From Candidatus Izimoplasma sp. HR2 (GTDB lineage: Bacteria; Bacillota_I; Bacilli_A; Izemoplasmatales; Izemoplasmataceae), in the NCBI GenBank assembly GCA_000753575.1, contig JRFF01000009.1:1-64000 (forward strand): a DNA stretch of 64,000 bases. The letters are read 5' to 3'. Below the pieces are notes generated by a model. That model saw only the letters and a program-made list of their open reading frames with translations. It had not been told where the DNA came from and ran no database searches. Position numbers and translations under genes: made by a program. Within the stretch, counting starts at the first letter, position 1. The number at the start of each line of letters is the position of its first letter. Positions 16,922 through 45,443 of the stretch are shown here, in pieces.

Positions 16922-19060
16922 TTAATAAAGAGGATATTCAATTACATATATTTTATTATATGTCTCTGACAGTATAACTAAATATTCTCCTTCAACTTTC
17001 ATAGTAAAATAATTAGATTCACTGTTCTTGAAAATAAATTTCTCATACAAAGGATCACTTATTTTATATTTGTATATTGCGTATTTAAACATATCATAAT
17101 CTTTTATTATGAATATGTAGTCTCCTTCAACAAAAACATCCGTTTCTGGAACCTCAAAATTCATACAATAAAGACCTATAGGATAACTAACAAGCTTTCT
17201 CTCATATGCAGAATCACTTAATTTATATATGAATATCGTTCCGCTATTATTATCATCAAATGCTGATATAAATATATAATCTCCTTCAACCTGCAAATAA
17301 ATACCAAATCTACTTATTTCCCATAATTCACTTGCTACAATTTTTCTTTCATAAGATGGATCAGTTGTTTTAAATACATAGACTGCCCCTCGTCCATCAT
17401 TAGAATAAAATGCTGATACAATTATATAATCTCCTTCAATCTTAATTTCATTGGCAAATGATTCAAAAGGTAATAAATCACTTGCTACAATTTTTCTTTC
17501 AAAAGATGGGTCACTTAATTTATATAGATGCACAGCACTTTCTACATCATCAGCATAAAATACAGATACAATTATATAATCTCCTTCAATTCCATAATTA
17601 TTACGAAAATAAATAACCTCGTCTTCAGCTCCTGTAATTATTCTCTCATATAGAGGATCACTTAATTTATATACAAATATTCCCCCTAATTCGTTATTAT
17701 AACGCCTTGTATATATAGTTAAATAATCTCCTTCAACCTGCATTTTTAATCCAAATCTACTTAATTCAACTATATCTTTTCCTATAATCTTTCTTTCATA
17801 AGATGGATCACTTATTTTATATACATATACTGCTCCACGTAATTCATTATGTCTATATGCTGATACAATTATATAATCTCCTTCAATTATAATTTCATAT
17901 CCAAAACTATCATTAGGCAATGAATCACTTCCTATAATTATTCTTTCATATAGAAGATCACTTATTTTATACACATATATTCCTTCTTCAAATAAAATAA
18001 ATATATAATCTCCTTTTATTTGTATACTTCTAGCATCTATGTCACCTATCAATCTCTCATATGAAGGATCACTTATTTTATATAAATATGTCTGCCATTG
18101 TAAATCGATGTTTTGTTTAGATACAACGATATAATCTCCTTCTACTTCAATTGTCTCTCCATATATTTCATTATCACCAGCTGAAAATTGTGCATGAATA
18201 GCTAAATATGTTGCAGTAACTATTATATTTTCAGGTGGCATTGTATTTGGTAAGTCATCCCATCCTACAAAAATGAATCCTGCTCTTTCATCAACAATTG
18301 GTATATCTATTTCACTGAAGTGAAATCCATAATAATGTGATTCACTTTGTATCATAGTTCCGTCATAATCTAAATATTGTATTGTGTAAGTATTAATTAT
18401 ATACCTCGCAGTAACTATAATATCTTGTGCTGGCATTGTACTTGGTAACTCTTCAGTCCATTCTATAAATTCATATCCTATCATACTAGGATCTTGAGGT
18501 ATTACAAAATCTTCTAATTCATCTTTATATGCAAATTGTTCAGAAGTAATCTCAGTACCATCAAAATCTAAATACCGTACCATATATTGTCTAGCAGTAT
18601 AAATAGCAATAACTGTAATGTCTTCTGCTGGCATTGTATTTGGTAATTCATCCCAATTTAAAAATACGTATCCTGTCCTAGAAGGATTAATTATATGTAA
18701 TAAATCTAAATCATATCCGTAATCTGTTTTAATGACATATAAAATGCTCCCATCTTTATCCAAAAAAGTAATGTCATATTGATTTGCTTCCCATTTAGCA
18801 AACAAAGTTAAATTATCAGTAATAGGATTAATAAAATCATAAATATGGTTTAAAGAAGAATCACTATACCACCCTAAGAATTCATATTCTTCTTTAATAG
18901 GTATATCTGGTTCTAATACACTTCCCCAACTATCAACACTAACACTTTCTATTACTGTTTCACTATTAGTTTCAAAGCTTACATTGTACTTTTGAGTTGT
19001 ATCTTCGCTACACCCAGTAAGAAAAAGTAATATTACAATACTTATCAATATTCTTTTCAT
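16922..19060 (-). CDS. Large surface lipoprotein with InlB-type repeats and nine propeller-like repeats
   Basis: About 712 aa from the ATG that leads into a lipoprotein signal: MKRILISIVILLFLTGC, lipobox LTGC with Cys at residue 17. The frame opens 33 bases earlier but without a ribosome site. Residues about 22-290 hold four Listeria-Bacteroides (InlB_B/Flg_new) repeats, each ending in phrases like FLGWYSD or TMPAEDITVIA. From about 295 to the end nine repeats follow the pattern EGDYIIVSA...VYKISDPSYERKI, reminiscent of FG-GAP/beta-propeller blades. Likely an adhesin or binding protein held on the outer face of the membrane. It stands alone, with a leader hairpin upstream. Confidence 0.78.
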   Translation of the reverse strand: MKRILISIVILLFLTGCSEDTTQKYNVSFETNSETVIESVSVDSWGSVLEPDIPIKEEYEFLGWYSDSSLNHIYDFINPITDNLTLFAKWEANQYDITFLDKDGSILYVIKTDYGYDLDLLHIINPSRTGYVFLNWDELPNTMPAEDITVIAIYTARQYMVRYLDFDGTEITSEQFAYKDELEDFVIPQDPSMIGYEFIEWTEELPSTMPAQDIIVTARYIINTYTIQYLDYDGTMIQSESHYYGFHFSEIDIPIVDERAGFIFVGWDDLPNTMPPENIIVTATYLAIHAQFSAGDNEIYGETIEVEGDYIVVSKQNIDLQWQTYLYKISDPSYERLIGDIDARSIQIKGDYIFILFEEGIYVYKISDLLYERIIIGSDSLPNDSFGYEIIIEGDYIIVSAYRHNELRGAVYVYKISDPSYERKIIGKDIVELSRFGLKMQVEGDYLTIYTRRYNNELGGIFVYKLSDPLYERIITGAEDEVIYFRNNYGIEGDYIIVSVFYADDVESAVHLYKLSDPSFERKIVASDLLPFESFANEIKIEGDYIIVSAFYSNDGRGAVYVFKTTDPSYERKIVASELWEISRFGIYLQVEGDYIFISAFDDNNSGTIFIYKLSDSAYERKLVSYPIGLYCMNFEVPETDVFVEGDYIFIIKDYDMFKYAIYKYKISDPLYEKFIFKNSESNYFTMKVEGEYLVILSETYNKIYVIEYPLY

Positions 19061-19102
19061 AATTCTAATCACTCTTCCTATCTTTTTTTTCATTTAAATC
19101 AA

Positions 19103-19375: not shown

Positions 19376-19412
19376 AAAAAGCAACAGTAATATATCTGCT
19401 ACTGCTTTTTAT
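19376..19412 (-). terminator. Intrinsic terminator of the RecQ operon
   Basis: Arms AAAAAGCA/TGCTTTTT with inner CAGTA/TACTG complementarity, located about 25 bases past the stop of the coiled-coil gene. Confidence 0.65.
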
Positions 19413-19438: not shown

Positions 19439-19855
19439 TTAGAGCAATACATTTAATACAATTGAAGTAATGAATAAAATAATTGTAATTGCACTAAATA
19501 TAGTGAAATTCCTATTGAATGTTTTCTTCAAATCAGCTATTACAGAATTTGTAACTTCAACAACTTTTGAGTTAGATTCTCCCAATGAAATCACTTTGTT
19601 TTCAATTTTTGATACATTTTCATCAAATCTTTTTAATGTATCCTCTACAGTAACTGATGAAACCCTTGCAACTAATTCACTAATCTCTTTAGTAAGGACA
19701 TCTATATCTTTCAATAAATTTCTTAATTCCTCTGATGTTTTCACTAATTCGACCTTACCAGCTGCAAAAGAGATAGCCTCTTGATCTAATTTCTCAATAT
19801 TTTCTAGTGCACTTGCGATTCTATTCTTTACTTCATCCACTTTTGTTTGTTCCAT
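19439..19855 (-). CDS. Coiled-coil protein with C-terminal membrane anchor
   Basis: 138 aa. Residues 1-112 are a long predicted coiled coil with heptad-like leucines (IASALENIEKLDQEAISF, LRNLLKDIDVLTKEISELV), then one C-terminal membrane segment (FTIFSAITIILFITSIVLNVLL). It is tail-anchored with the helix facing the cytoplasm. The start is 2 bases after the stop of the RecQ-like gene and has its own GGGGAG ribosome site, so it is certainly in the same operon. It may tether or sense for the helicase; the role is inference. No family recognised. Confidence 0.7.
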   Translation of the reverse strand: MEQTKVDEVKNRIASALENIEKLDQEAISFAAGKVELVKTSEELRNLLKDIDVLTKEISELVARVSSVTVEDTLKRFDENVSKIENKVISLGESNSKVVEVTNSVIADLKKTFNRNFTIFSAITIILFITSIVLNVLL

Positions 19856-19857
19856 CT

Positions 19858-22800
19858 TTATTTCTCCCCTTTTATAAAATAGTTCAGCTTGGCTGATTGA
19901 TTGTCAACATGTAATAATAATGGAAAATCCCTCATATCATCTTCAATTACATCAGATATTGAAAGCTTGTAATATAGGTCTTCAATTTCAAACATTTCTT
20001 CAATTTGAAGAACTAGATCGTAATAGAGTTTATCATTTCTTTGAAATATTTTTTTCATTACATACATTGTAAATTCAAGTAAAGTATCTTCACCGATTGA
20101 ATAGTTTTCTTTTGAAAACTTAATTCCTGCTATAAAATCATCCATTACTGCTTTTTCATCATACTCCTTAGAATATAATTCAGACATAGATCTTAAGAAT
20201 AGTAGTCCCGGATGATCTGGTGTAGATTCTAACTCTCTTGATACTTGCCCTCTTAATTCAGCTGCATCATTATGAGATTTTATCCCACCTATTCTTTCTC
20301 CAACTTCATTAACATCTCCTTCGAAAAGTTCAATAACCTTTGGAAATCCTGCATCTTTAGTATTTAATATCTCAGTAATCAACTCAGAGAAAGTTGATTC
20401 AAAATACCTAACTACTCTCTCTCTAATGACTTTATCCTTGTCTTCTGTTTTTAGTGCTGCTTGAGATAGTTGAACCATCTCTCTTATACCACGTCTTCTA
20501 CCTCTTTCAATAGTATCATAAATAAATTCCAATAGTACTCGAGACATATGCATAATGAAGTTCTTGTCATTTCCGTCTAAAAGTTTTTCTGCCTTTAATT
20601 TTTCAGATTTAACACGTCCTTCATTATATCCTCTAACATAAGCACAAAACTTTTCTATTACTATCTTTCTATCAGAATGGGCAAATGCCATGATATATTC
20701 ATTTGATGAATAGTCTACAGTATAATCATTTATGATTCCTAAAACTACTAACCTTTGAATTGCTTTTTCAAGATCATTTCTAGCTTCGCCTCTTTTTGTA
20801 GTAATAGTAAAAAACGTTTGATTATTATCTTGGCTACTAAATAAGACTTCAACAACTTTCTCTATTTCATTAAGTTCTTCATCAATTCCTCTAAATGATC
20901 CTACATGAAAGAATAACATTCTTGATATATCATCTGCATTATCACGTTTGAGATCCTTGATGTAATCTTTTATTTCATCTAGTGAAGTATTAACATCCAA
21001 TAAATGATTATTTCTTCTTTCATTATCATTCGAAAAAACTATGACACAATGTGCATCGCTTCTATCTCTTCCAGCTCTTCCTGCTTCTTGATAAAATGAC
21101 TCGATTGAACCAGGAATACCATAATGTATAGTATATCTTATATTGGGTTTATCAATTCCCATCCCAAATGCTTTTGTAGCAACAAGCAATTTTAGATGGT
21201 CTCTCTTAAATTTTATTGCTGTATTTTTTTTAACACTATTCCATTTGTGTTTATCAAAATTCTTTGGTGCAGATCCTGCGTAGAACCCAACAGTAGTTCT
21301 AAGTGTTTTTGATAAATCTTGACTAACAGGAAACACTCCATAGTCCCCGTTGACATGTGGGCAAAATACAATTCCACAGTATGGATTTCTCATTTCTGAG
21401 TTGAGAAATTTATTTGTTGAAACCCCAAAATTTTGCGGTAGAGTTGTTTTTATTACTTGAGATACCAAAATTGATTTACTATCACTTGAGGTACTAAGAA
21501 TAGAAAAAATCAGTTCTTTTCTATCAAATGTTTGAGGAGTGATTATTGCATCAAAATCAGTTATAGAGATTTCTCTTTGAACATCTTTCAATACTGCGGT
21601 CGATGCTGTCCCTGTAAGTGCAAGTATTAATGGTACTTCATTGTTTTTCATAAACACTGTTCTTGCATTCTTTCCTATGTTTAGATATGCTGTTCTAAAA
21701 TCATGGCCCCATTCTGAAACACAATGGGCTTCATCAATAGCAACTGTAAAAACACTATTATTAACAAGTTGAGCTTTTACTTCGTCTCTAAAACTTTTCA
21801 TTTGCAGTCTTTCTGGTGATAGGTATACAAGCGATACGTTATTACTTTTCATCCAATTTAGTTTTGCATCTCTGGTAGCCTTATCAAAAACTGAATATAT
21901 TGCTACTGTATTATCAATCCCCTTAATAAGTAAATTATCTAGTTGATCATCCATTAATGAAGTAATTGGAGATACTACAATTGTTTGTCCAGGAATAATT
22001 AATGAAGTTAACTGATAAATCAAAGATTTCCCGCTGCCAGTAGGTAAGAGAACAATGGAATCTTTCTTATCAATTACTCTTTGAATAGTTTCAAATTGTC
22101 CTTCTTGAAAGATTGTAAATCTGTATATATAATTCATTATCAGTTTCAACGACTCTTCATCCGATCTTTTTGGAGAAAAAGCATCAAAACTATTAATGTC
22201 ACAGAAGTAATTATCTCTAAACGCTATGTCACTGATAATTATTTGTTTTGTAGTTGATACGCTATTCCCGAATGAGATTTCCACACTATCCTCATTAGAA
22301 TTTGAAATTATATTCAAGCACAATTCAAATTTGAAATCATAGATTTCTGAATAGGCACCGAAAAGCTCCTTTAATTTTCCTATTGCAATCCTTGAGATGT
22401 AATTAATCTCTTCTTTTGAGAATGCATCTGTTTGAAGGTTTATATTAATTGCATCTGTTTCAACTATAGATCCTTGTTCAAGTGCTTTTAGAAGTGTAAT
22501 CTGCAACTGATGCACAACTTTCATAGCAATATGATATTTCTGTAACTTAGTAAAAACTGATACTTTACTAGTAACTTTCAGTTCATTTTTAAGTTTTGTC
22601 AATATTTCAGAATCAGCTTTGTTTAATTCCTCATTCTTAATACGGAATACTTGATATCCAGCGTTTTTCAAAGCTTGATCTCTTTTTCTATCTTTATCTA
22701 GATGAAGCAAATGTTCCTCTCCATCTAATTCAATAACAATATTTTTATTATTAACATTAACAAGAAAATCAACTCTTTGAGATGTTAAATCAAAGTCATT

Positions 22801-23451
22801 TGATTCAATTAGCGAACTTATCTCAACTTGGGTTAATACATGAGATGCCCAGTTACTTCCAATCATTTCCTTTAAAAACAAATCTATAAAGTTTTTCTCT
22901 AGTTCACTATCAACAGATTTTTCTACATTAGAAAAATCAATAAAATTATCTAAAATCTCTATTGTGTTAGAATTGCATTTGTTTATTTCCCATTTACGTT
23001 GAAGTCTTTTCTCTAGTTCAAGAGAATTGATTGTAACCCTACCCCTATTTAATAATCTAAGTAATAGTGAGTAAATTTGCCTTCTTTTTGGATCAACTTT
23101 ACTTTGGGTTGACTTTATATCAATTCTAAATTTTGAATACGGGTAAATCATTTCAAGCGACTCATTGAACGCTAGCTCTCTTAGGACACTTTCTGAAACC
23201 CCAAGAGAATTAAAGAAATAGACCTCGTGATTTAGAGTTTTGGGTCTAACAAATAATGGTTTGATTTGATATATATTTTTGCTAATAATTGTATTATCCT
23301 TGTTCGTTTTTTTACTTTCTTTGCCATTTCTAATATCTATTGCATGTTTGCATTTCGGATAGTTTGAACATCCCCAAAATTCATTCCCTATGTTTTTACC
23401 TCTTCTTGCAATTCTTTCTACCATTGGGTTACCACATTTTGGACAAACCAT
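19858..23451 (-). CDS. Zinc-ribbon / DUF559-like nuclease / RecQ-family DNA helicase fusion
   Basis: 1197 aa, about twice the size of normal RecQ. Residues 2-36 form a topoisomerase-type C4 zinc ribbon (CPKC...WGCSNYPKC). Residues about 222-275 carry a DUF559/Vsr-like nuclease signature: QRVDFLVNVNNKNIVIELDG, then KDRKRDQALKNAGYQVFRI. The helicase core follows: Walker A LPTGSGKS near 469, DEAH box AIDEAHCVSEWGHDFR near 570, and motif VI QEAGRAGRDR near 788. The C-terminal 350 residues are not a normal RQC/HRDC region. Predicted to unwind and cut DNA. It heads an operon with a membrane coiled-coil gene and follows an Mrr nuclease carrying two HRDC domains. Probably defence rather than housekeeping repair. 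Confidence 0.82.
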   Translation of the reverse strand: MVCPKCGNPMVERIARRGKNIGNEFWGCSNYPKCKHAIDIRNGKESKKTNKDNTIISKNIYQIKPLFVRPKTLNHEVYFFNSLGVSESVLRELAFNESLEMIYPYSKFRIDIKSTQSKVDPKRRQIYSLLLRLLNRGRVTINSLELEKRLQRKWEINKCNSNTIEILDNFIDFSNVEKSVDSELEKNFIDLFLKEMIGSNWASHVLTQVEISSLIESNDFDLTSQRVDFLVNVNNKNIVIELDGEEHLLHLDKDRKRDQALKNAGYQVFRIKNEELNKADSEILTKLKNELKVTSKVSVFTKLQKYHIAMKVVHQLQITLLKALEQGSIVETDAININLQTDAFSKEEINYISRIAIGKLKELFGAYSEIYDFKFELCLNIISNSNEDSVEISFGNSVSTTKQIIISDIAFRDNYFCDINSFDAFSPKRSDEESLKLIMNYIYRFTIFQEGQFETIQRVIDKKDSIVLLPTGSGKSLIYQLTSLIIPGQTIVVSPITSLMDDQLDNLLIKGIDNTVAIYSVFDKATRDAKLNWMKSNNVSLVYLSPERLQMKSFRDEVKAQLVNNSVFTVAIDEAHCVSEWGHDFRTAYLNIGKNARTVFMKNNEVPLILALTGTASTAVLKDVQREISITDFDAIITPQTFDRKELIFSILSTSSDSKSILVSQVIKTTLPQNFGVSTNKFLNSEMRNPYCGIVFCPHVNGDYGVFPVSQDLSKTLRTTVGFYAGSAPKNFDKHKWNSVKKNTAIKFKRDHLKLLVATKAFGMGIDKPNIRYTIHYGIPGSIESFYQEAGRAGRDRSDAHCVIVFSNDNERRNNHLLDVNTSLDEIKDYIKDLKRDNADDISRMLFFHVGSFRGIDEELNEIEKVVEVLFSSQDNNQTFFTITTKRGEARNDLEKAIQRLVVLGIINDYTVDYSSNEYIMAFAHSDRKIVIEKFCAYVRGYNEGRVKSEKLKAEKLLDGNDKNFIMHMSRVLLEFIYDTIERGRRRGIREMVQLSQAALKTEDKDKVIRERVVRYFESTFSELITEILNTKDAGFPKVIELFEGDVNEVGERIGGIKSHNDAAELRGQVSRELESTPDHPGLLFLRSMSELYSKEYDEKAVMDDFIAGIKFSKENYSIGEDTLLEFTMYVMKKIFQRNDKLYYDLVLQIEEMFEIEDLYYKLSISDVIEDDMRDFPLLLHVDNQSAKLNYFIKGEK

Positions 23452-23519
23452 AATTATTCCCCCTCTGTTAATTTATCTCGTTAACTTCAAATACTTTATT
23501 TTAGAATTTGTATAATAAA

Positions 23520-23542
23520 AAGCAATCCATTGTGAACTGCTT
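23520..23542 (-). promoter_or_regulatory. Leader terminator hairpin in front of the RecQ-like gene
   Basis: Reading leftward: AAGCAGTTC, loop ACAAT, GGATTGCTT (9 bp with G-T pairs), then TTTTTATTATA. It lies between the predicted promoter and the gene, about 70 bases before the start codon. Confidence 0.5.
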
Positions 23543-23567
23543 CATTGCCCTCACAACATAAATAGTA

Positions 23568-23600
23568 TACTGCAGCATACTATTAAAGTAAAGTTTGTGT
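23568..23600 (-). promoter_or_regulatory. Predicted promoter of the RecQ operon within a palindrome
   Basis: Reading leftward: TTTACT, a 17-bp spacer, TATACT. The near-palindrome AGTATGCTGCAGTATACT covers the -10 region and could be an operator. Another hairpin (GTGTGT/ACACAC) lies just upstream. Confidence 0.45.
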
Positions 23601-23670
23601 GTTTTTAACACACTTATAGAAACTTCGTTTTTTTATCAAACACAATATTTAGTTAGCAAAAAAGATAAAA

Positions 23671-23692
23671 AAAGATCGATAATCCGATCTTT
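23671..23692 (-). terminator. Intrinsic terminator of the Mrr-HRDC gene
   Basis: Arms AAAGATCG/CGATCTTT followed on the - strand by a long T run. It means the Mrr-HRDC gene and the RecQ gene are neighbours but have separate transcripts. Confidence 0.8.
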
Positions 23693-23712
23693 CCATTTGT
23701 TTTCATTTTGAC

Positions 23713-24747
23713 TCAACATTTTTCTAAGAATTTTTTTATTTCTCCTACAAGATATTTACCCCATAACTCTGTTTTAGCTGGACCAATTCCTGTTATCGTT
23801 AACAGTTCACTTTCCGTCTTTGGTACCTTTTCCACTATTTGCTCCAAAGTTTTATTATTAAAAACATTATATAATTTATCAATTTTGTTATATGATGCAA
23901 TCTTTTTTCTTGTTTCTTTAAGGAATAGTGTAAATTCTTCTTGTTTAACTTTGGCAACTTCTGTTTCTTGTGGTTTAATTGGATCCAACTTCATAAATAC
24001 TCTTACCCTATTCACCAAGTATTCACCAAACAAATCTACTTTCTTTTGGTCAAAACCTCTTACTTCAAGTAACTTCTCTAAGGTAGTAGGTTTCTTGTTT
24101 ATGATATCCTCTATTGTTTTATCATTGTATACGAGATAAACAGGTGATATCTTGTTATATTTTGAAATATTCATTCTCTCTTTTTTCAGCATACTAACAA
24201 ACTTCGTATTTTCTTTGAATGATCCTTTTTTCTTTTTACTAGTTTCAAATGCAATGTTGCTATAATTTGATTGCATAACATCTCTATTAAGCTTTTCATC
24301 CAAATCCTTAATAAACTCAATAATATCTTCTCTATAATATGTTTGTATATCTTCATTAACAATATAAGCTAACCCTCTACCAGTTAATTGATGTTGCTCA
24401 GCTGAGGTAAATAGATATAAATTTGGTTTTTTAGTATCAAAATCAAATAAGCCATAATGCTTAACACCCTTTTGCATTTTCATTAATTCATTCTCACCTA
24501 ATACAGTTTTTGGACCATATCTTTTACACTGGACTCCAAATCTGTTAGTTGGATTATCCTTATCCCAAAGTATTATGTCAACTCCGTAGTCGTTCTTCTC
24601 TGTTAACTCACCCTCATAACCCTGATACTCTTTCATATACTTGAAAATGAATAATTCAAATTGCTCTCCGGTCATCTCATCTACTTCTTTAATTGATTTT
24701 GGATAATCAAAATCTCTTTTTTTACCTAGTTTAATTTTTATTGCCAT
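23713..24747 (-). CDS. Mrr-type nuclease with two C-terminal HRDC domains
   Basis: 344 aa. The N-terminal restriction-endonuclease fold (Mrr_cat-like) runs from about residue 25 to 150: GEQFELFIFKYMKE, then the metal-binding core YGVDIILWD (Asp57) and FGVQCKRYG (Gln73-x-Lys75). Two HRDC-like domains follow: about 185-255 (KERMNISKYNKISPVYLVYNDKTIEDI...LLEVRGFDQKKVDLFGEYLV) and 268-342 (TRKKIASYNKIDKLYNVFNNKTLEQI...LLTITGIGPAKTELWGKYL). HRDC domains normally sit at the end of RecQ; here the neighbouring RecQ-like helicase lacks them. Likely a DNA-cutting partner of that helicase. Ribosome site GGGGAG. Confidence 0.82.
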   Translation of the reverse strand: MAIKIKLGKKRDFDYPKSIKEVDEMTGEQFELFIFKYMKEYQGYEGELTEKNDYGVDIILWDKDNPTNRFGVQCKRYGPKTVLGENELMKMQKGVKHYGLFDFDTKKPNLYLFTSAEQHQLTGRGLAYIVNEDIQTYYREDIIEFIKDLDEKLNRDVMQSNYSNIAFETSKKKKGSFKENTKFVSMLKKERMNISKYNKISPVYLVYNDKTIEDIINKKPTTLEKLLEVRGFDQKKVDLFGEYLVNRVRVFMKLDPIKPQETEVAKVKQEEFTLFLKETRKKIASYNKIDKLYNVFNNKTLEQIVEKVPKTESELLTITGIGPAKTELWGKYLVGEIKKFLEKC

Positions 24748-24868: not shown

Positions 24869-25480
24869 TTAAATTCTTTTTGCATTATTCCTTCTCATTG
24901 GTGATGATAAATCGTAATTGCAAGATTTTCTTCTAACATGAGATTTATTTATTAGAGCTTTCAAAATACCTATATCTGATGAAATTCTATTCCAGTTAAC
25001 AACTGCCATTGGTATATTTGCAACCATATTATCTATTATTCTTGATGGCATAAATGGAAAAACTTTCTCATATTCACTTCGATAAGTGTAGTCAATCCAA
25101 TTAGAATTAGGTGAAACTAACTGTTTTTCTTCATTATCAAATGCACACATACTTTGGTTTGCATTAGGTAGATTGACAATGATGATACCAGATTTTTTAT
25201 TTATTTTACCGTCATACATACTAGAGTATAATTCCCAATCAACATGCTTTCTACCTTTTGTTTCTGAACCTAATAGTAAAATAGTAACAGTAGAATCCTG
25301 CAAATATAAATCTCTAATCTTATTACGGATAACTTCTGAAGGTAAGTTATCATCAATATCTCCAGTATCAACAGAGTAATCTTCAAAGATATCATAAATA
25401 TCGTTCAATCTTAGCAACTCATTCTTATAATTCTGATCATTCCCGTGATGATAACTAATAAATACTTTTCTCTTAATCAT
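24869..25480 (-). CDS. ThsB-like TIR-fold protein (DUF1863 type)
   Basis: 203 aa from the ATG at 25480, which lies 1 base after the stop of the membrane-protein gene; the frame opens further upstream inside that gene. The N-terminus KVFISYHHGNDQNYKNELLRL and STVTILLLGSETKGRKHVDWEL match the TIR-like MTH538/DUF1863 fold of ThsB. The glutamate in DWE (residue 83) occupies the place of the TIR catalytic Glu. ThsB enzymes make an NAD-derived signal on phage infection in Thoeris. No ThsA (SIR2-SLOG) gene is nearby, so the effector must be another protein, perhaps the adjacent membrane protein. Confidence 0.78.
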   Translation of the reverse strand: MIKRKVFISYHHGNDQNYKNELLRLNDIYDIFEDYSVDTGDIDDNLPSEVIRNKIRDLYLQDSTVTILLLGSETKGRKHVDWELYSSMYDGKINKKSGIIIVNLPNANQSMCAFDNEEKQLVSPNSNWIDYTYRSEYEKVFPFMPSRIIDNMVANIPMAVVNWNRISSDIGILKALINKSHVRRKSCNYDLSSPMRRNNAKRI

Positions 25481-25481
25481 T

Positions 25482-26093
25482 TTACACTTCTCCCTTAAAT
25501 ATTTTTTCAAGTACCAAAATGTATATATTGATATTTTTAGATACATTCAACATATCGCAAACTAGTTCATCATATTTGTGAAATCTTTTTTGAATATCTT
25601 GAGGTTTCTCATCGGGATATTTAACAATTTCACTTTTATACCATTTTCTAAATTCACCTTGATATTTAGTAAGATGTGGTCTTAGCCCTTCGTTTAATAC
25701 TTTTGCAGATATATCTATTAACTCTAGGTTGCATTTATATGGTTCGATTTCTTTCATAGATTCTCTAATTTTTAAAAAAGCATCATACCATGAATTGTAT
25801 ATTTCCACAATTATATCATCATTTTCGAACTCTAAAACAATTTTTCTAGTTACAAGTTCAATCCATATTTTATATGCAGCTTGCCTATTAGTTTTATTCA
25901 GTCTAATTTTTACTCCCTTAATGTCAAAATCAATGATATTAATATCTATTTGCTTTTTCAGCTTTTTAAAAATACCAAGTTTTTTTAATAAAAATAATAA
26001 TATACAGGCACATAGTAAAAATATCCAGTTTAATACAACGAAATCTAATAGCAGATTAATTAGTCCCCATGATATTTCCCATAAATTTATCAT
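25482..26093 (-). CDS. Single-pass membrane protein between two TIR genes
   Basis: 203 aa. A hydrophobic N-terminus (residues 8-36, LLLDFVVLNWIFLLCACILLFLL in part) is followed by a basic stretch (KKLGIFKKLKK) and a largely helical cytosolic domain (NRQAAYKIWIELVTRKIVLEFE, RPHLTKYQGEFRKWYKSEI, IQKRFHKYDELVCDMLNVSK). I do not recognise the family. It sits 51 bases after the TIR gene and 1 base before the ThsB-like gene, all in one direction. A membrane effector or scaffold answering a TIR-made signal is a reasonable guess, not a demonstrated role. Confidence 0.65.
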   Translation of the reverse strand: MINLWEISWGLINLLLDFVVLNWIFLLCACILLFLLKKLGIFKKLKKQIDINIIDFDIKGVKIRLNKTNRQAAYKIWIELVTRKIVLEFENDDIIVEIYNSWYDAFLKIRESMKEIEPYKCNLELIDISAKVLNEGLRPHLTKYQGEFRKWYKSEIVKYPDEKPQDIQKRFHKYDELVCDMLNVSKNINIYILVLEKIFKGEV

Positions 26094-26144
26094 TCATCTC
26101 ACCTCTCTCTTTTTTTTGCAAGTCTAGTTTATCGCCTTGTTTCC

Positions 26145-26924
26145 TTAATTTATTCTAGTGATTTTTCCTCTATCTAAATATACAAGTTCATCTTTGTACA
26201 TAAATAGCTCATTGTATATCTTTAGAAATCCCATTCCGCTTTTATCGTCATCGAATTCTTTCCCATGAATTTTTTGAATATATACTTGATTTGATCTACC
26301 ATTAAAATAACCTAATTCCCATGCAATCCATTTAGAAATCGAATAATTTAGTGTTTTTAATAAATTCAAATTAAAGCTACTTCTCATCCGAATTTGAAGA
26401 ATTCTAATATTTCTTTTCGCTACATGACTTCTACTTTGAGATAAAAAAGGATCTACAATCCAATCTACATATACAGTATAACCCAAGTCCTCTGTTAATA
26501 TCAAATATGTACCATAAACAATATACTTGTCTTTCATTGAATGAGATAAAAATATGTCAAATCTGGTTTTCTCAATATTATCAACCAGAGAATTAAAATC
26601 TGAATTATCCAAAGTTGATAATTGCTTATAAGCCTCATTAGTTTTGAAAAAATCACTATTTTTGCTATTGAAAAAACGTGTTAATTCATCGACACTTAAA
26701 TCATCACTACTAGTATTGAAATCCATATTCTTAATATACTCTTTAGTGCTTTTTTTGGATTCATCATCTGTTTTATTAAGCAATTTTGAATATTGATAAT
26801 TTATCCCGAATTTCTCAGTTAATTTATCATCCAAATTTTCTTCTGTAATATTTTTATCTATTAATTTTTTTAATATTTTGCTTATTGTTAGTTCATTTTT
26901 TATACTTAGTTCATCTTTATTCAT
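26145..26924 (-). CDS. TIR-domain protein
   Basis: 259 aa. Residues 1-118 are charged and helical, without a recognised domain. The TIR domain covers about 121-240: RFDIFLSHSMKDKYIVYG at the start (box 1), LGYTVYVDWIVDP, and ISKWIAWELGYFNG with Glu203 in the W-x-x-W-E position used by NAD-hydrolysing TIRs. First gene of the TIR / membrane protein / ThsB-like set and driven by cassette copy B. A likely anti-phage sensor or NADase. Confidence 0.8.
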   Translation of the reverse strand: MNKDELSIKNELTISKILKKLIDKNITEENLDDKLTEKFGINYQYSKLLNKTDDESKKSTKEYIKNMDFNTSSDDLSVDELTRFFNSKNSDFFKTNEAYKQLSTLDNSDFNSLVDNIEKTRFDIFLSHSMKDKYIVYGTYLILTEDLGYTVYVDWIVDPFLSQSRSHVAKRNIRILQIRMRSSFNLNLLKTLNYSISKWIAWELGYFNGRSNQVYIQKIHGKEFDDDKSGMGFLKIYNELFMYKDELVYLDRGKITRIN

Positions 26925-29359: not shown

Positions 29360-29706
29360 TCTTCAACCTCAGCTTCATAGTTTGTTTTTACTTCTTTAAG
29401 AGTAATATTAACAACCTCGACTTGCTGCCCAAAGAAATCAGCTAATTTTGTGAAATCCTCATCGTAAAAGTCTTCACTTTTTATTCTCGAGAAATCTAAC
29501 ACATATTCTTCAAAATCGCAATTAATCGAATCTTTTATTATGGCATTTTGAAAAAATGAGTGTACTTTTTGAACTTCTTTTGTCTCGATGTTGACTTTAA
29601 TGTGCTTATCTTCAATTATTTTATTATATTCTAATCCTTCTTGTTCTATAAGCGAGAAGATGCAAACATTTTCTTCACTATAGTAGTACCCAGTTAATTT
29701 CTTCAT
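29356..29706 (-). CDS. Unknown 116-aa protein of the PHP-ATPase operon
   Basis: 116 aa, acidic, no membrane segment or recognised motif (for example IIKDSINCDFEEYVLDFSRI). It overlaps both neighbours by 4 bases at start and stop, so it is translated in step with the ATPase upstream and the zinc-ribbon protein downstream. A dedicated partner is likely; the function is unknown. Confidence 0.6.
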   Translation of the reverse strand: MKKLTGYYYSEENVCIFSLIEQEGLEYNKIIEDKHIKVNIETKEVQKVHSFFQNAIIKDSINCDFEEYVLDFSRIKSEDFYDEDFTKLADFFGQQVEVVNITLKEVKTNYEAEVEE

Positions 29707-32114
29707 TTTGTTATCTCCATTCCCTTCAATATATTAATATTATATTTCACAGCTCTTGTTATTAGTGCATCTTTTCCACCTTCAAGTATTTCACAAACAT
29801 CATCAATAAATTTTTCATCTTCAATACTACTATTTCTGTATTTAAATTCATTCTCATTATTTTCAGCTATAATTATATTTTCGCTATCTGATGTTATACT
29901 GACATTTGCATTATGTGTAACGACTAAAAATTGAATCAAATTTTGCTTATCTTTTATTTTAATTTTTTTAATATGTTCTACAACCAATTTCTTAATATTA
30001 TTATTATCCATGTTATTCTCAGGTTGATCAATAACAACAACTGTTTTTATTCTTTTGTCAATATTTGTGTATATCTTTGAAAATGCCATTTTTAAAACTT
30101 CTTTAGCTCTTCCACCTGCAGATAAACTTATAATGCTTTTATTATTTTTTGTGTCATAAATTAAATCATATTTAGTATTCGATTTATCAAACACTTTCAA
30201 ATACTCACCTTTGTATTTTGATATAAAATCACGAATATTTGTTGAATTAAACTCTTTGGTCCCTCTTAATGTAGACTTATTCATTAAGCTATCAAGAAAA
30301 CGAGTCTCAAAAGTATCTTGCTCTGTCAAATTTGAATACATGTATTTCAAAATAGATTTATAAGTCGAGTTACTTGTATCATACTCAATTACTACTTTAT
30401 ACTTATCAATACTCTCTTCCTTTTTAATACTGATCCATTCATCATATACATCTTTAGTCCAAACACTATCAATTTCTCTCAAACATTTAACTAAGGTTAT
30501 TATAGAATCAGAATAGTCTTTCAATGTATTTTCTGCTAGATTTATGTGTTCTTTATCAGTCGATATATCATTAGCAGCATTAAAATCTCGAATTCCAGCC
30601 TTAAATAACTCATCAATAGTTGAAATTGATTTCTCGAGATTTGTTATTAGCCTTACTTTATTTTTCATTATCTTGTTACTAGTTTTAAAGTCAACAATCT
30701 CTTGAGTATTGAATACTTTATAGCTTCTAATTAATAATTCCGATAATTGAGTTATATTAATCTCATTTTTTTCAATTTTTGAAACAATATCATTTATATT
30801 GAATGTCAAATTCTCCTCTTTTACAAAGTAACCACTATTCTCAATAAATGCCTTGTCATATCTAAATGAGTATGCACTACTACGATTAGAATAATGGTCT
30901 ATTGTCTTATTTAATGAGTATATCAATTTATCTACATTGAAATCTATATCTACTTGATTCAATCTAGGTAAATCAAACCCCAATCTCATTGACAAGTTCT
31001 TCATATACTCATTCTTTATCTCTGAATCATAATAAAGTTCTTCATACTGCTGGATTTCAACAATTTGCTTTATAGCTTCTGCTGATATAGCTTCCTTAAG
31101 AGAACTGTACTTTACCTTATTAATCTCTATTTGAAAAGATGATGTATTCTTATCCACAACACTATTGTATTTTTCTTGTATACCATCTACACCATTAATT
31201 ATTTTATCGATCAGTAAAGACTTCCCTGAACCAAAAGGTCCAATAATAGAGTTCAACCAATTACTAACATTCACTGGAACATCTTCGTTAAAAAATCTAG
31301 ATATCATGTAATTCTCATATTTAGATTTTCTCATTAAATCAACATCTTGAATGCTTATTCTTAATCTAGGTTCTTCAAAAGCTGTTTTCAAAGTATCAAA
31401 AGGGTAATCCAAACTACCTAAAATATCACAAATTAACTTATCATCTTCACCATCTTCACTCTTTGGATATTTACTTATGTCATGGCAATCAGAAAATGCA
31501 ACAAAAGGAAAATCAACATATCCATTTGATAAGTATATTGCCAAAGATTTTTTTATGTTTTCCACATTGTTAGAATCCTCAAATGCATCGAAAATCAAAC
31601 GTGTCAACTGATCAAGTTCCTCAAGACTAGCAGGTAATCCTTGTGACTTATTATTGAAATGGGGTATTAGTATAAAACTACCAAGTTGCTCCTTATTTAT
31701 TTCCCTAAAGAGTTCATATAAATCAGCTATACTATCAGTTTCTTCTTCTAAGCTAAATGATTTAATTACCTTATCAATTTTTTTTATATCTCTTGATTTA
31801 AAAAAACATAGAGTGTGAAATCTATCTTTATAAATTTTTGTATCATGAATATCTAACTCAACACCAATTATATAATTGATTTTATTCTTATACTTGTCTG
31901 TAATTATTAAAGTTTCTATGTCGTTGTATAAATCTACGTTTATGATGTTATGATCAGTCACACTAAACAATCTAACTGGATTCTCTAGTCCACATAGTTT
32001 ATCAAGTAAGTCATTAGCATTATACTCAGGGCCCTTATAGTCACTTCCTTTAACCTCGTTACTTTTTTTTGAATGAATATGTAAGTCTGTTCTTAACCAT
32101 ATTGAATTACTCAT
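29703..32114 (-). CDS. PHP-domain / SMC-like ATPase fusion (TrlF-like)
   Basis: 803 aa from the ATG at 32114, which has GGAGG in the right place; the frame opens 30 bases earlier inside the leader hairpin. The N-terminal PHP phosphoesterase domain shows DLHIHS (residues 10-15) and FSVTDHN. An ABC/SMC-type ATPase is inserted after about residue 280: Walker A GPFGSGKS near 293-300, a long helical middle, signature SLSAGGRAKE near 660, Walker B VVVIDQPENNMD near 690. PHP plus ATPase proteins of the TrlF type are suspected defence nucleases. Two small genes follow with 4-base overlaps. Driven by cassette copy C. Confidence 0.8.
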   Translation of the reverse strand: MSNSIWLRTDLHIHSKKSNEVKGSDYKGPEYNANDLLDKLCGLENPVRLFSVTDHNIINVDLYNDIETLIITDKYKNKINYIIGVELDIHDTKIYKDRFHTLCFFKSRDIKKIDKVIKSFSLEEETDSIADLYELFREINKEQLGSFILIPHFNNKSQGLPASLEELDQLTRLIFDAFEDSNNVENIKKSLAIYLSNGYVDFPFVAFSDCHDISKYPKSEDGEDDKLICDILGSLDYPFDTLKTAFEEPRLRISIQDVDLMRKSKYENYMISRFFNEDVPVNVSNWLNSIIGPFGSGKSLLIDKIINGVDGIQEKYNSVVDKNTSSFQIEINKVKYSSLKEAISAEAIKQIVEIQQYEELYYDSEIKNEYMKNLSMRLGFDLPRLNQVDIDFNVDKLIYSLNKTIDHYSNRSSAYSFRYDKAFIENSGYFVKEENLTFNINDIVSKIEKNEINITQLSELLIRSYKVFNTQEIVDFKTSNKIMKNKVRLITNLEKSISTIDELFKAGIRDFNAANDISTDKEHINLAENTLKDYSDSIITLVKCLREIDSVWTKDVYDEWISIKKEESIDKYKVVIEYDTSNSTYKSILKYMYSNLTEQDTFETRFLDSLMNKSTLRGTKEFNSTNIRDFISKYKGEYLKVFDKSNTKYDLIYDTKNNKSIISLSAGGRAKEVLKMAFSKIYTNIDKRIKTVVVIDQPENNMDNNNIKKLVVEHIKKIKIKDKQNLIQFLVVTHNANVSITSDSENIIIAENNENEFKYRNSSIEDEKFIDDVCEILEGGKDALITRAVKYNINILKGMEITK

Positions 32115-32124
32115 ATAAACCTCC

Positions 32125-32326
32125 ATAAAAAACAGCCCTCGCAAGGACTGTTCATTTTTCTCCCTTGGTTTCTTAATTATATTATATCATAAATTATTAT
32201 AAATAACAGGTCATATAAGACCCAAAAGAAAAAGCCCAAGAGGGCTTTGTTATACTATGCATATCGTTAGTTGCAACTATTTGTGATACGGCTCGTTGTA
32301 ACGCATTTAGTTGCAACTTATTATGA
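32125..32326 (-). promoter_or_regulatory. Terminator-promoter-leader cassette, copy C (PHP-ATPase operon)
   Basis: In gene direction: GTTGCAACTA...TAGTTGCAA inverted ends around ACAACGAGCCGTATCAC (32269-32313); terminator AAAGCCCTCTTGGGCTTT plus T run (32229-32250); promoter TATGATATAAT (32180-32192); leader hairpin AACAGTCCT/AGGGCTGTT with TTTTTT (32127-32152) ending directly at the GGAGG ribosome site. Confidence 0.75.
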
Positions 32327-32394
32327 ATTTTTGAGCAAAAGTATATATCAAGCTGAAAATTGATATGTTTTCTTTATTTCGTTTTTCTTGACAA

Positions 32395-33486
32395 TCACTT
32401 ATTCCACTCGTCCATAAGTAATGCGAATCTATCTTGAACAACACTTTGATTTGCAATTGGTTTTGCTATGTTTAATCTTCTTACAATTGTAGGCTCATTT
32501 TTAGCATCAATCTCAAGACTATTGTTAACCTCTCGGACAACAGTAATATTACTATTGTCAAAAATACTGCTATCAAATGGCACACACGCATTTGGATTAT
32601 GAAAAACAAATAATCCATCTGTTAATTGCTCTTCATTATCTGACTTTACTTCTTGAAATAGATATTGTACCTGATTGTCATTGCTATGTGTATCTCTTAT
32701 TAAATAAACATTATTGTTGGAATATTCTCCAGAACTGATATGTAGCGAAACAAGTTTTCCTATGGTTAAACTTGAACTAAAAATGACTGCAGCTACATCT
32801 TTAAAGTCTGATTTATTAAAAAGATTAACATCAATTTTAGAATCAGATCCAATCTTTTCTACTTCGCTTATTTTACTAAAACTCTTAGATTCAATATCGA
32901 ACGAATATCCATACAATAAAGACAACATTGCATAATAATACTCTTTCCCGTAATTAATATCATCGTATGAAGCAAGTGCAACTAAAAATGGAGCATCATC
33001 CTTTACATGCTCTTTACTCTTGTATGAATTTACGTATTTATTCTTTTTAGATGTCAATGCATTTGAACATCTCACAATGGACTCGTTAATTAGAGTACTA
33101 TAATCATTCAATAACCATGGTGGGTTTAATGATTCTATTACATCTTTAAAGTTTCTTGCTTCTTCCGGTTGTCCACTATGTTTTATATTAGCAACAACCG
33201 CTTCTACATAAAATCTGTTTTCCCCTTTAATGATAAAATCTGGCACTTGTTGTGTAAAATCAATTTCTAATCCACAATCTACAAAAACTCTATACAAAAA
33301 CAATTCCCAAAAAACTGAATGAAATGTAGTCTGAAACTCTTTAACAATTTTATTGTCTCTATCTACAAAGTCTTTTGCCCAATTATTTATAATATATTTA
33401 TATTCGCTTAAGTCATCCTTTATAAATTTAAACTTTTTATGATATTTAGATGGATCTAAATCATCTATTGTCTTAAAAAAATCCAT
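32395..33486 (-). CDS. Putative PD-(D/E)XK nuclease-like protein
   Basis: 363 aa. An early WELFLYRVF helix (Glu61) is followed by QQVPDFII (Asp83) and RFYVEAVVAN (Glu95), the order seen in PD-(D/E)XK nucleases, but the third position is Val instead of Lys, so activity is uncertain. The remaining 250 residues are unassigned. It begins 35 bases after the HerA gene in the same direction with an AAAGGAAG ribosome site and is probably the third gene of that operon. Confidence 0.6.
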   Translation of the reverse strand: MDFFKTIDDLDPSKYHKKFKFIKDDLSEYKYIINNWAKDFVDRDNKIVKEFQTTFHSVFWELFLYRVFVDCGLEIDFTQQVPDFIIKGENRFYVEAVVANIKHSGQPEEARNFKDVIESLNPPWLLNDYSTLINESIVRCSNALTSKKNKYVNSYKSKEHVKDDAPFLVALASYDDINYGKEYYYAMLSLLYGYSFDIESKSFSKISEVEKIGSDSKIDVNLFNKSDFKDVAAVIFSSSLTIGKLVSLHISSGEYSNNNVYLIRDTHSNDNQVQYLFQEVKSDNEEQLTDGLFVFHNPNACVPFDSSIFDNSNITVVREVNNSLEIDAKNEPTIVRRLNIAKPIANQSVVQDRFALLMDEWNK

Positions 33487-33521
33487 AAATAACTTCCTTT
33501 CTTTTTAATTGAAATAAAAAT

Positions 33522-35171
33522 TTATCTTTTCTTCCACGGTTCTAATAATCTATCAAAATCCAAGGTCTCCCATTCTTTTTTCCATTCTTCCAAAAACATA
33601 ATATCATTTGATTTAGGTTGTGGACTACATCTGTCAATTAAAACTAAAGTTGGAAGATTTATTGCTTCACCTATAAGTAAAGCTTCTCCAGATTTCAAAA
33701 CAGGTAGTAGATTAGTAATTGAACCTAGTGTATCAGGAAGTAATTTCTTAACATAATTTTGATCATCTGGATTTGTAAGTCTCATTGACACAAAATTATT
33801 ACATTGTGAAAATATTGTTTCAGATATTTCACTTGGTCTTTGGCTTACAATACCAAGAGTGACACCATATTTTCTTCCCTCTTTCGCGATTCTTTCAATA
33901 GATGTCCTTGATGCTCTGAATCTTTCCAAGTTACTCCTTGGTACATATTTATGAGCCTCCTCGTAAACTAATAGTAAAGGAATTTCATTTGAACCTTCTT
34001 CTCTTACTTTAGAATAATAAAACCCAAACTCAAACAAAATTCTTGAGATTAAAGAAACAGATATACTTAAAACTTCGAATGGTATCCCACTTAAATTAAA
34101 AACTGTAATATTAGAGTTTTGATTTGTTACATAACCTACAAATCTTCGAATAACTTCCTCAAAAGTGATGCTTCTAGTATCTTCACCTAAAATAAACTCT
34201 AGTCTTTTGTCATTTAATTTATTTTCGAGTCTACTAACAAAATTGGATAGTTTACCATTTAAAGGACCAGCTTTAGGACCCCTAGTGCCTTGTATAGTTT
34301 CCTCGTTCTTTGCTTTTATATTTTCATAAACCGCGTAGATATCAAAAAGCAAAGGAGAATCATAATGAATTCGATCCAACTCTTCTTCTGAACCAGTAAA
34401 CAAATTCTTTTTCGACTCTATTACATACTCTTTAAATACGTTCCTTTGATTATGGTCATTTGCCTCAGTATCAATAAATAGTTCTTCAAGTTCTTCACTA
34501 TTTAACATCCAAAATGGTAATACAAGTTCAGAAATATCTATATGATTACCGTTTGGAAATGCACTAGGGTACTCCCCATGTATGTCAAACAAAACTATAT
34601 GAGAATTGTTTAAACCTTCATAACCATCATTTTTCATAGTAATAGCTTTTTGTAGAATTTTTGCAACCGTATGAGATTTTCCTGAACCCGTAGCTCCAAC
34701 TATAGCAAAGTGTTTGTTAAAGAACTTATTTCCATTCATTTGAACAGGTACATTTGAGTTTTTCGGTAATGTCGAAAACTCAAAAATATCATTCACATTT
34801 ATTCCAGATTTATATATCATAGATAATTCCTCATTCGACAAAATAGAAATACCTGTTTGTGGTGGTAAAGGTATCCCATTTATACCTCTATTAAAGGTTA
34901 CATTGCTTTCATCAAACAATAAACTACCAAATAGTTTTACCTTAATTGTGAAAATCACTCTTTCTGCTTCACTTTCTTCAGAATCATTATTAATAGACTT
35001 TATTCTATAATCATCTATGATTCCCACACCAAAATTTATACCATTATCGTCAAAAGGTATCTTGATAAAACTACCTAATGAGAATTGATTCTCAAACTCA
35101 TCAGCATCTAAAATTTCTATTTCAACTTCACTAGAATTTACACCTGAAATTCTAAAATTATCAGAATTCAT
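33522..35171 (-). CDS. HerA-family ATPase
   Basis: 549 aa. The N-terminal 130 residues fit a HAS-barrel. Then come Walker A IVGATGSGKSHTV (residues 157-169), Walker B LLLVYEEAHKYVPR (about 396-409), and the arginine-finger region IERIAKEGRKYGVTLGIVSQRPSEI. HerA is a hexameric DNA translocase that works with a nuclease. Its ATG overlaps the stop of the DUF4297-like gene (ATGA), the same pairing as in the known DUF4297-HerA anti-phage systems. Confidence 0.87.
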   Translation of the reverse strand: MNSDNFRISGVNSSEVEIEILDADEFENQFSLGSFIKIPFDDNGINFGVGIIDDYRIKSINNDSEESEAERVIFTIKVKLFGSLLFDESNVTFNRGINGIPLPPQTGISILSNEELSMIYKSGINVNDIFEFSTLPKNSNVPVQMNGNKFFNKHFAIVGATGSGKSHTVAKILQKAITMKNDGYEGLNNSHIVLFDIHGEYPSAFPNGNHIDISELVLPFWMLNSEELEELFIDTEANDHNQRNVFKEYVIESKKNLFTGSEEELDRIHYDSPLLFDIYAVYENIKAKNEETIQGTRGPKAGPLNGKLSNFVSRLENKLNDKRLEFILGEDTRSITFEEVIRRFVGYVTNQNSNITVFNLSGIPFEVLSISVSLISRILFEFGFYYSKVREEGSNEIPLLLVYEEAHKYVPRSNLERFRASRTSIERIAKEGRKYGVTLGIVSQRPSEISETIFSQCNNFVSMRLTNPDDQNYVKKLLPDTLGSITNLLPVLKSGEALLIGEAINLPTLVLIDRCSPQPKSNDIMFLEEWKKEWETLDFDRLLEPWKKR

Positions 35172-36337
35172 GACAACACCTCCATAATTTGTTTAGTATT
35201 CAATCCTTTTATTGTATATACATCACAACTCTCTTTTGTCTTGTTATCACTCCAATTAAAATATATCATTTTCCAATTAAAATAATCGTCAAGACTTAAT
35301 CGATCAAAGTTTTCTTCTTTTATTATCCTTAAATTATAAGATATTTTACTTAAATAAATAGTAACTGTTCCATTCGCTTTCTTACGTCTATATATCATTG
35401 GAGGTTTTAAAAATTGATTCTTACTAAATAATATATCCTCAAACCCATCATTATATACGTTATTAAGTTGAAGCAATTCACTTTTTATATCAAGTATATT
35501 TAAGCTATTTGATATAACAAAAGTAAGTGGTTTTATTGTGTATGATGCTTTATTATAGTGATTATCATTTATTTCACGTATCATATTCCCTATTGAAAGA
35601 CTAGAATCATCCACATCACCAATAAATACAATGTTTTGCATTCTCCTATTTACTTTTAATACGTTTTTCCTTAAGTGTTTAACATATTTCTCAATACTCT
35701 GGTTTTCAGAGAAAACTTTATTGAAAATCATATTTCTTCCCTTGTTTATATGATTAAACAGTTCTCTTTTTGATGTCTTTCTATTCTTAACTTCATGCAA
35801 ACTATTCTTTGTTATTTTTTTAAAAAGATAATCTACCATCATCGAATAGATGAACTCAACTTCATTATTGCTATAATCTAAATATGGTAAGTTAAGATAT
35901 TGAATAATTGATTTATACTGTTCTTGAATATTAGGTGCGTTAACAAGTTTGAATTTAGTAAGAAACTTCTCTAATATTTCTGTTGAATATTCTGATATAT
36001 CTTTCCCAAGAACTTTTTTTAATTTCACAACACAAAACTCCGAGAAATAATCATCATAGCCATTTTTATTAGCGAAATATGTGAATAGATAGTAACTCTT
36101 CTCTTGGTGTTTTTCAAATTCGTTAATTAATTGCTTTATTGGGTCCCTTAATACACTAGGTACTAATTTTGTTTTTTCTCGATATTTCACCTGCATAACC
36201 CATGAGTCTGCATCTATATCTTGTATATTTTCAAGATATATTTGTTGATTTTGATTTTCACAATGCAATATTTCAAATAAAGCTTTATCAATTTGGTATT
36301 CAAATCCTCTTAAAGCAAAGTATCCTCCATCGTCCAT
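35168..36337 (-). CDS. DUF4297-like nuclease partner of HerA
   Basis: 389 aa from the second ATG (36337), which has GGAGG 6 bases upstream; the first (36349) overlaps that ribosome site. The N-terminus GGYFALRGFEYQIDKALFEIL followed by IYLENIQDID...WVMQVKYRE (Glu36, Asp40/42, Gln49-x-Lys51) is the nuclease core found in DUF4297/Cap4-type proteins. The C-terminal half is unassigned. Predicted to cut DNA when assembled with HerA. First gene of the operon and driven by cassette copy D. Confidence 0.75.
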   Translation of the reverse strand: MDDGGYFALRGFEYQIDKALFEILHCENQNQQIYLENIQDIDADSWVMQVKYREKTKLVPSVLRDPIKQLINEFEKHQEKSYYLFTYFANKNGYDDYFSEFCVVKLKKVLGKDISEYSTEILEKFLTKFKLVNAPNIQEQYKSIIQYLNLPYLDYSNNEVEFIYSMMVDYLFKKITKNSLHEVKNRKTSKRELFNHINKGRNMIFNKVFSENQSIEKYVKHLRKNVLKVNRRMQNIVFIGDVDDSSLSIGNMIREINDNHYNKASYTIKPLTFVISNSLNILDIKSELLQLNNVYNDGFEDILFSKNQFLKPPMIYRRKKANGTVTIYLSKISYNLRIIKEENFDRLSLDDYFNWKMIYFNWSDNKTKESCDVYTIKGLNTKQIMEVLS

Positions 36338-36353
36338 ATAATCCTCCATTAAA

Positions 36354-45225: not shown

Positions 45226-45257
45226 GAGCCGTTCATGTCAATAGACATAAACAGCTC
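45226..45257 (-). terminator. Riboswitch-controlled terminator of the lysine operon
   Basis: In the RNA: GAGCUGUUUAUGUC, loop UAUU, GACAUGAACGGCUC, 14 continuous pairs with two G-U, then UUUUAUAUU. The 5' arm contains the 3' strand of the aptamer P1 helix (45246-45254), so P1 and this terminator exclude each other. Confidence 0.85.
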
Positions 45258-45420: not shown

Positions 45421-45443
45421 TTTTCCCCTACAAAATCACTATA

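Follow-up and report, generated by a model that had tools for sequence, protein, structure and literature searches.

Which genes work with the RecQ-type helicase of Candidatus Izimoplasma sp. HR2, and to what end? The helicase, of 1197 amino acids (aa), lies in the stretch analysed here (positions 1-64,000 of contig JRFF01000009.1, assembly GCA_000753575.1; hereafter the window, 64,000 nucleotides), beside a small coiled-coil gene and an Mrr-type nuclease gene. All three open reading frames (ORFs) are present in the ORF list, on the minus strand (Table 1). An initial annotation had described them as a candidate defence system: one machine of helicase, two nucleases and membrane tether, with the Mrr-type protein carrying the HRDC domains that the helicase lacks. 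We find that the helicase and the small coiled-coil gene almost certainly form a conserved two-gene module, probably an undescribed defence system, and that the Mrr-type gene is a bystander.

Pairing of the helicase with a small downstream gene

Relatives were sought by the helicase alone, using its second helicase lobe and the region that follows (alignment A3); the small gene was not used. The species-genome collection yielded 46 loci and the viral collection eight, three of which passed E < 1e-50 over the helicase (L056-L058). Two plasmid loci (L007, L008) were added, for a total of 51 after removal of duplicates. Excluded before counting were short generic RecQ matches (L059-L063), the generic helicases of genome G031 (L005, L006), zinc ribbons belonging to another gene (L002, L003), a contig shared with L010 (L004), a near copy of L007 (L009) and the window itself (L001). 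Four of the 51 loci have less than 300 nt past the helicase, leaving 47 with room downstream; these include near relatives (L014/L015, L048/L052, L034/L043 and L026/L027) and therefore do not amount to 47 independent events. The helicase is split over two ORFs in L014, L018, L020, L024, L025, L029 and L031.

At 46 of the 47 loci a same-strand ORF of at least 60 aa starts between -74 and +107 nt from the end of the helicase, and in 29 of these 46 it overlaps the helicase gene. The remaining locus, L041, has an overlapping partner as well, which was found by the partner profile described below and whose C-terminus is hydrophobic by eye. The window has the same arrangement, a helicase of the family immediately followed by a small coiled-coil gene whose start codon lies 2 bp past the helicase stop. 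The spacing and the presence of a partner at 47/47 loci go well beyond chance and bear out the earlier view that a small coiled-coil membrane protein is tied to the helicase.

By a simple hydropathy-window rule for transmembrane (TM) segments, 33 of the 46 partners carry a lone C-terminal hydrophobic segment; among the 281 other ORFs of 80-350 aa at these loci, 6 do. The partner of L019 is split into two ORFs, with the TM segment in the second. An iterated profile seeded with eight partners reaches 46 of 48 partners and gives five hits among 2728 background ORFs: partner genes or pieces of them in L009, L041 and L019, a second coiled-coil gene in L008 and an ORF in L014. These profile matches make distant homology among the partners likely but do not prove it, because coiled coils inflate such profiles.

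The helicase

The annotated make-up of the large protein was confirmed by Pfam, which finds Zn_ribbon_Top1 (aa 3-40, 6e-11), DUF559 (aa 227-291, 1.7e-10), DEAD (aa 451-621) and Helicase_C (aa 739-796), and has no match to an HRDC domain in this protein. Walker A, DEAH and motif VI are intact, and the DUF559 domain, the predicted nuclease of the protein, has the conserved residues D228, E241, D243 and H247. The protein belongs to the RecQ helicase superfamily, passing the family model TIGR00614 with a score of 257.6 (cut-off 219.8). Its score against the RecQ equivalog is 276.8, far under the cut-off of 640.2, and it differs from RecQ by the lack of HRDC and by added N- and C-terminal regions. 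Because, in the order to which the window belongs, RecQ-like matches (E <= 1e-30) are otherwise confined to G031, the window helicase is not a standard housekeeping RecQ there.

An AlphaFold2 model built from 22 sequences has a mean predicted local distance difference test (pLDDT) score of 82.5 and a predicted template modelling score of 0.79, and its best fold match in the PDB is a RecQ catalytic core (6crm, E 9e-21). In the model, the C-terminal region is all-helical after a small alpha/beta element at aa 891-923, which may represent a winged helix of the kind found in RecQ. A PDB sequence search with the nuclease part gave a best E of 0.18, to the endonuclease-like protein 3hrl, and a viral fold search returned general helicases and unrelated large enzymes only. 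Among 50,697 phage records, one gave a match, which covers the RecQ core only.

The small partner

In the window partner the lone hydrophobic segment is C-terminal (aa 115-133), and AlphaFold2 predicts helices at residues 2-65 and 70-137 (pLDDT 74). Complete partners range across the loci from 90 to 501 aa. Several partners that lack a TM segment finish in a short basic-hydrophobic tail (L028-L030, L033, L034, L037, L042, L043); as a guess, these tails might be peripheral membrane anchors. A PDB search with the partner alignment recovered mostly designed or generic coiled coils.

A second pair adjoins the Rhodothermus plasmid copy (L008 10080-13563, minus strand). Its larger member, a protein of 987 aa, has weak AAA hits, and the partner profile matches the other, a coiled-coil gene of 184 aa. 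The tether may serve a further ATPase as well.

The Mrr-HRDC neighbour

The Mrr-type protein (344 aa) has the domains ascribed to it: Pfam finds Mrr_cat at aa 23-99 (8.5e-11) and two HRDC stretches (3e-23). A machine in which it joins the helicase and the coiled coil through HRDC has in its favour the adjacency of the genes and their shared strand, in this one window. According to a consensus scan, however, the Mrr-type gene is transcribed separately, with a terminator-like hairpin at 23694-23669 right after its stop codon (folding z-score of the hairpin region just -1.56), in the 261-bp gap that precedes the helicase.

The distribution of the two genes also argues against such a machine. A phmmer search of all ORFs of 63 loci (E <= 1) found Mrr-HRDC relatives at the window's own locus only. 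Among 392 genomes of the phylum, Mrr-HRDC relatives (E <= 1e-15) occur in eight and the helicase (E <= 1e-60) in one, the window's own; at the seven other Mrr loci, the ORFs of the surrounding 14-16-kb stretches include no relative of the helicase or the coiled coil. Among the 90 genomes of the order, the helicase is present in the window genome and G031, and Mrr-HRDC in the window genome, G068, G082 and G006. The neighbourhood survey of homologues thus recovers the helicase with the small gene again and again, and the helicase with Mrr-HRDC in the window genome alone.

Pfam found no HRDC match in any of the 36 family helicases scanned. Its absence is thus a trait of the family and not a sign of a split machine, and HRDC is not supplied in trans. 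The window genome has HRDC in another frame as well, of 1263 aa. The three-protein machine is accordingly extremely unlikely, and the complementary domain split on which it was founded does not account for the family.

The fusion of an Mrr nuclease with HRDC forms a separate family (window 23713-24747; L074-L080), which occurs without the helicase.

Variation and spread of the family

Residue counts and the helicase tree are based on 42 aligned helicases, and Pfam domain counts on 36 relatives. Each of the residues G474, K475, D573, E574, H576, R792 and R795 is kept in 42/42 helicases, and the nuclease residues D228 and E241 are both kept in 29 of the 42. The 13 others comprise nine Bacteroidota-type helicases with a different N-terminus, L036 and L038, which have a protein kinase instead, L016, whose nuclease-like domain has altered key residues, and the 5'-truncated L041. 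Pfam finds DUF559 in 23 of the 36 relatives, Zn_ribbon_Top1 in 12, DUF2726 in eight, a protein kinase in three, and RNase H and HAD in one each. RNase H precedes the nuclease in L030; L038 also matches the L036 kinase, as does L029 weakly.

The enterobacterial form (Escherichia, Klebsiella, Raoultella) is 1558 aa long where read and begins with a ShosT-like HAD-phosphoribosyltransferase (PRTase). Directly before it lies a ShosA-like DprA gene, and its tail-anchored partner has 162 aa. Apart from a HAD gene in L026, such DprA and PRTase relatives turned up in enterobacterial loci only.

The module is patchily spread and mobile. It spans many phyla, with most loci on contigs of genomes or metagenome-assembled genomes (MAGs); many rows are MAG contigs, which makes single placements unsure. 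In E. coli it is present in 7/5426 complete genomes, four times on a plasmid and three times on the chromosome, and in the order of the window in one of the 89 other genomes (G031). The helicase tree mixes phyla, with, for example, one Bacillota and one Stahlbacteria sequence as sisters (support 100/97). Plasmid copies were found in Escherichia, Klebsiella, Raoultella and Rhodothermus, as might be expected if the pair served to maintain plasmids or other elements and travelled along with mobile elements and defence genes. We consider such a function very unlikely, since the majority of loci come from genome or MAG contigs, spread over many phyla, and some lie within bacteriophage exclusion (BREX) operons.

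Organisation and neighbourhood of the locus

Table 1. Features of the window (positions on the forward strand)
Feature	Position	Strand	Basis
Small partner, 138-aa tail-anchored coiled coil	19439-19855	-	ORF, hydropathy, AlphaFold2, partner profile
Large protein (1197 aa), helicase of RecQ type, Zn ribbon and predicted PD-(D/E)XK-type (DUF559) nuclease at its N-terminus	19858-23451	-	
C4 zinc ribbon Zn_ribbon_Top1, helicase aa 3-40	23332-23445	-	Pfam match
DUF559 predicted nuclease domain, helicase aa 227-291	22579-22773	-	Pfam match
RecQ core (DEAD + Helicase_C), helicase aa 451-796	21064-22101	-	Pfam match, motifs
Small alpha/beta element, helicase aa 891-923	20683-20781	-	Secondary structure of model
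Terminator-like hairpin 3' of small gene	19380-19403	-	Consensus scan only
Promoter-like site (23592-23564) over 17+17-nt imperfect palindrome (23556-23589), 5' of helicase	23556-23592	-	Consensus and repeat scans only
Mrr-HRDC nuclease, neighbouring gene outside the module	23713-24747	-	Own terminator-like hairpin; relatives do not co-occur
TIR gene, ThsB_TIR domain	24869-25546		
203-aa gene between the TIR genes, overlapping, hydrophobic N-terminus	25482-26093		
TIR gene matching PADLOC ThsB models	26145-26924		
TrlF-family ATPase	29703-32144		
PD-T7-5	32395-33486		
HerA	33522-35171		
DUF4297	35168-36349		

The helicase leader (window 23519-23592) has a second terminator-like hairpin at 23543-23519, ahead of the start codon. 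Together with the palindrome it could be an operator plus attenuator.

Past the Mrr-type gene, the same strand of the window carries ThsB-like TIR genes, a TrlF-family gene, PD-T7-5 and HerA-DUF4297, and the stretch 29703-36349 is a dense defence island. The TIR genes at 24869-26924 are possibly a Thoeris-like set in which a membrane partner replaces ThsA. Defence genes accompany the module elsewhere too. The two E. coli chromosomal copies that were read both lie beside type I restriction-modification genes, one of them also beside MZA. BREX genes are present at 5/9 Bacteroidota-type loci, and three of these copies are inside BREX operons: L054 has, on one strand, PglX, two genes, an AlkB-type gene, helicase, partner, PglZ and BrxL, and in L055 and L053 PglZ and BrxL adjoin the module. 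A fragment of PglZ is present in L051 and part of BrxL in L052. A RecQ-PRTase (PsyrT-like) gene lies nearby in L023, and a dynamin-type gene follows the pair in L013. The candidate defence system of the initial annotation thus survives as a helicase and coiled-coil unit in a defence setting, with the Mrr-HRDC gene no longer a member.

In L016 (1956-7734), a CARF (Cas_APE2256) gene comes after a pair whose nuclease domain has lost key residues. Elsewhere in the window, positions 16922-19093 encode a protein of 723 aa that, judged by eye, starts like a lipoprotein, has InlB-like repeats and is repetitive in its second half. A lysine riboswitch (Rfam RF00168, 76.2 bits) lies at 45244-45421 on the minus strand.

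Comparison with known systems

The window helicase resembles that of PsyrTA/RqlHI in its RecQ-type core, which the PADLOC PsyrT model hits at 7.2e-63. In PsyrTA/RqlHI, however, the helicase carries a PRTase, whereas the window helicase has no Pribosyltran hit and has instead a predicted nuclease, a Zn ribbon and a coiled-coil TM partner. A DprA domain, the partner in PsyrTA/RqlHI and ShosTA, was not found in the window's genome, which is 92.8% complete. Similarity to ShosTA is a matter of the enterobacterial form, in which a ShosA-like DprA stands beside a ShosT-like HAD-PRTase fused to a DUF559-RecQ protein; the window form has neither DprA nor HAD-PRTase, and ShosTA proper is not known to have a helicase or tether. 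DpdF of the 7-deazaguanine system Dpd also has a RecQ-like core, and several PADLOC DpdF models hit the window helicase, but its NCBIfam score is 144.7 bits against a cut-off of 550. Zorya and Kiwa are membrane-based anti-phage systems in which a membrane component is coupled to a DNA-acting protein, and the module resembles them in having both. PADLOC gave no hits to ZorB, ZorC, ZorD or Kwa among the ten window proteins scanned; the small protein matched ZorA weakly, in what looks like background from its coiled coil.

PglZ (PF08665) was not found in the window's genome. Filing the module under DpdF, PsyrT, RecQ proper or BREX was ruled out by the scores, by the absence of PRTase, HRDC and DprA, and by the absence of PglZ.

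The nearest published arrangement is found in Acinetobacter type 1 BREX, where dprA, recQ and hp genes, reported without a function, lie between pglZ and pglX (PMC10117892); by gene names and order they fit the enterobacterial trio. In the open-access literature (bioRxiv and most subscription papers lie outside this scope), PADLOC and NCBIfam we found neither a name nor a function for the pair, in agreement with the initial annotation, which had matched its three-gene set to no named system.

Proposed mechanism and alternatives

We propose that the pair is a two-gene module against mobile elements, most likely against phages. The coiled-coil protein would dock on the helicase through its conserved N-terminal part, oligomerise and keep the helicase at the inner membrane. 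There the RecQ motor would load on foreign or abnormal DNA, such as ends, gaps or single strands, that enters or replicates near the membrane, and would unwind it, exposing it to the N-terminal effector, which across the family is usually a PD-(D/E)XK nuclease. For the window copy this would be the DUF559 domain, cutting the DNA under unwinding. Relatives would carry other N-terminal modules (protein kinase, RNase H, HAD-PRTase) as outputs or add-ons of the same helicase and tether. Gene pairing, domain content, intact catalytic residues, the defence setting and the patchy spread are observed; docking, membrane location, DNA target and cutting we infer, and our confidence is graded by part. 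A role of the pair in defence is likely. That the small protein is a membrane tether and not a membrane-killing effector seems rather probable, and for the output of the window copy we lean slightly towards DNA degradation. The chances of the mechanism as a whole being right we would call even.

Several observations weigh against this proposal. By the hydropathy rule, 13 of the 46 partners have no lone C-terminal TM segment, so that anchoring at the membrane may not extend to the whole family. In 12 of the 42 relatives (the nine Bacteroidota-type, the two kinase types and L016) the nuclease is absent or degenerate, so cutting is not the output everywhere. Repair-like genes occur near the module: AlkB-type oxygenase genes lie upstream at 5/9 Bacteroidota-type loci, DUF1848 genes are found nearby at 5/9, and in L019 a MutS_V gene lies immediately upstream. 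A PADLOC scan of 104 of the 176 listed neighbours, descriptive and without a control, added little; all 25 families listed, of 83, are models of reverse transcriptases, two members apiece. In the open-access literature we found no phage test of the pair.

Two rivals stand out: a small protein that kills through the membrane, and a role in repair. In the former, abortive infection would result either from a helicase-nuclease that senses phage DNA and a small TM protein that kills as a pore or disruptor, or from a toxic helicase restrained by the small protein, as RqlH is by RqlI. Small TM proteins are reported to act often as defence effectors; a DprA-PRTase pair is reported to give protection from T7 and lambda, and DprA homologues are linked to shosTA and rqlHI (PMC9122126). 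RqlH, a RecQ-PRTase, is reported to be genotoxic without RqlI, with the toxicity residing in its PRTase domain (PMC4670107). The enterobacterial version carries ShosTA-like parts, which would fit such a scheme. Yet the toxic PRTase of RqlH is absent from the window helicase, and the DprA and HAD-PRTase parts are confined to the enterobacterial copies. Moreover, the coiled coil is kept while the TM segment is missing by rule from 13 of the 46 partners and while complete partners vary from 90 to 501 aa, which suits a tether over a pore. We consider abortive infection unlikely.

The repair-like neighbours bear on the second rival, a membrane-associated complex for DNA repair or fork processing. 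They are real evidence for it, and RecQ is a family of repair helicases. Nevertheless, extreme patchiness in the order and in E. coli, plasmid-borne copies, the embedding of the module in BREX operons and defence islands, and an order whose other RecQ-like matches (E <= 1e-30) are confined to G031 speak for defence, and a repair complex seems to us improbable.

Returning to the tethered helicase, the conservation of motor and tether alongside a varying N-terminal part and varying neighbours suggests a sensor chassis with swappable outputs. Tentatively, and with somewhat less than even confidence, this can be extended to a general membrane-tethered chassis for DNA surveillance, in which a RecQ motor and a tail-anchored coiled coil of adjustable length, kept at the membrane at the site of foreign DNA entry, would serve swapped outputs and would plug into BREX with an AlkB-type/DUF1848 accessory layer. 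The outputs, put forward with the same reserve, would be a nuclease, a nuclease with RNase H, a kinase, and a HAD-PRTase under DprA control.

If the proposal is true, it adds to bacterial immunity a widespread, unnamed helicase-based module whose motor, tether and swappable effector are easily separated. It would offer a candidate function for the recQ and hypothetical genes inside BREX operons, and would open to direct study whether foreign DNA is caught at the membrane, and by what means a RecQ motor tells it from the cell's own.

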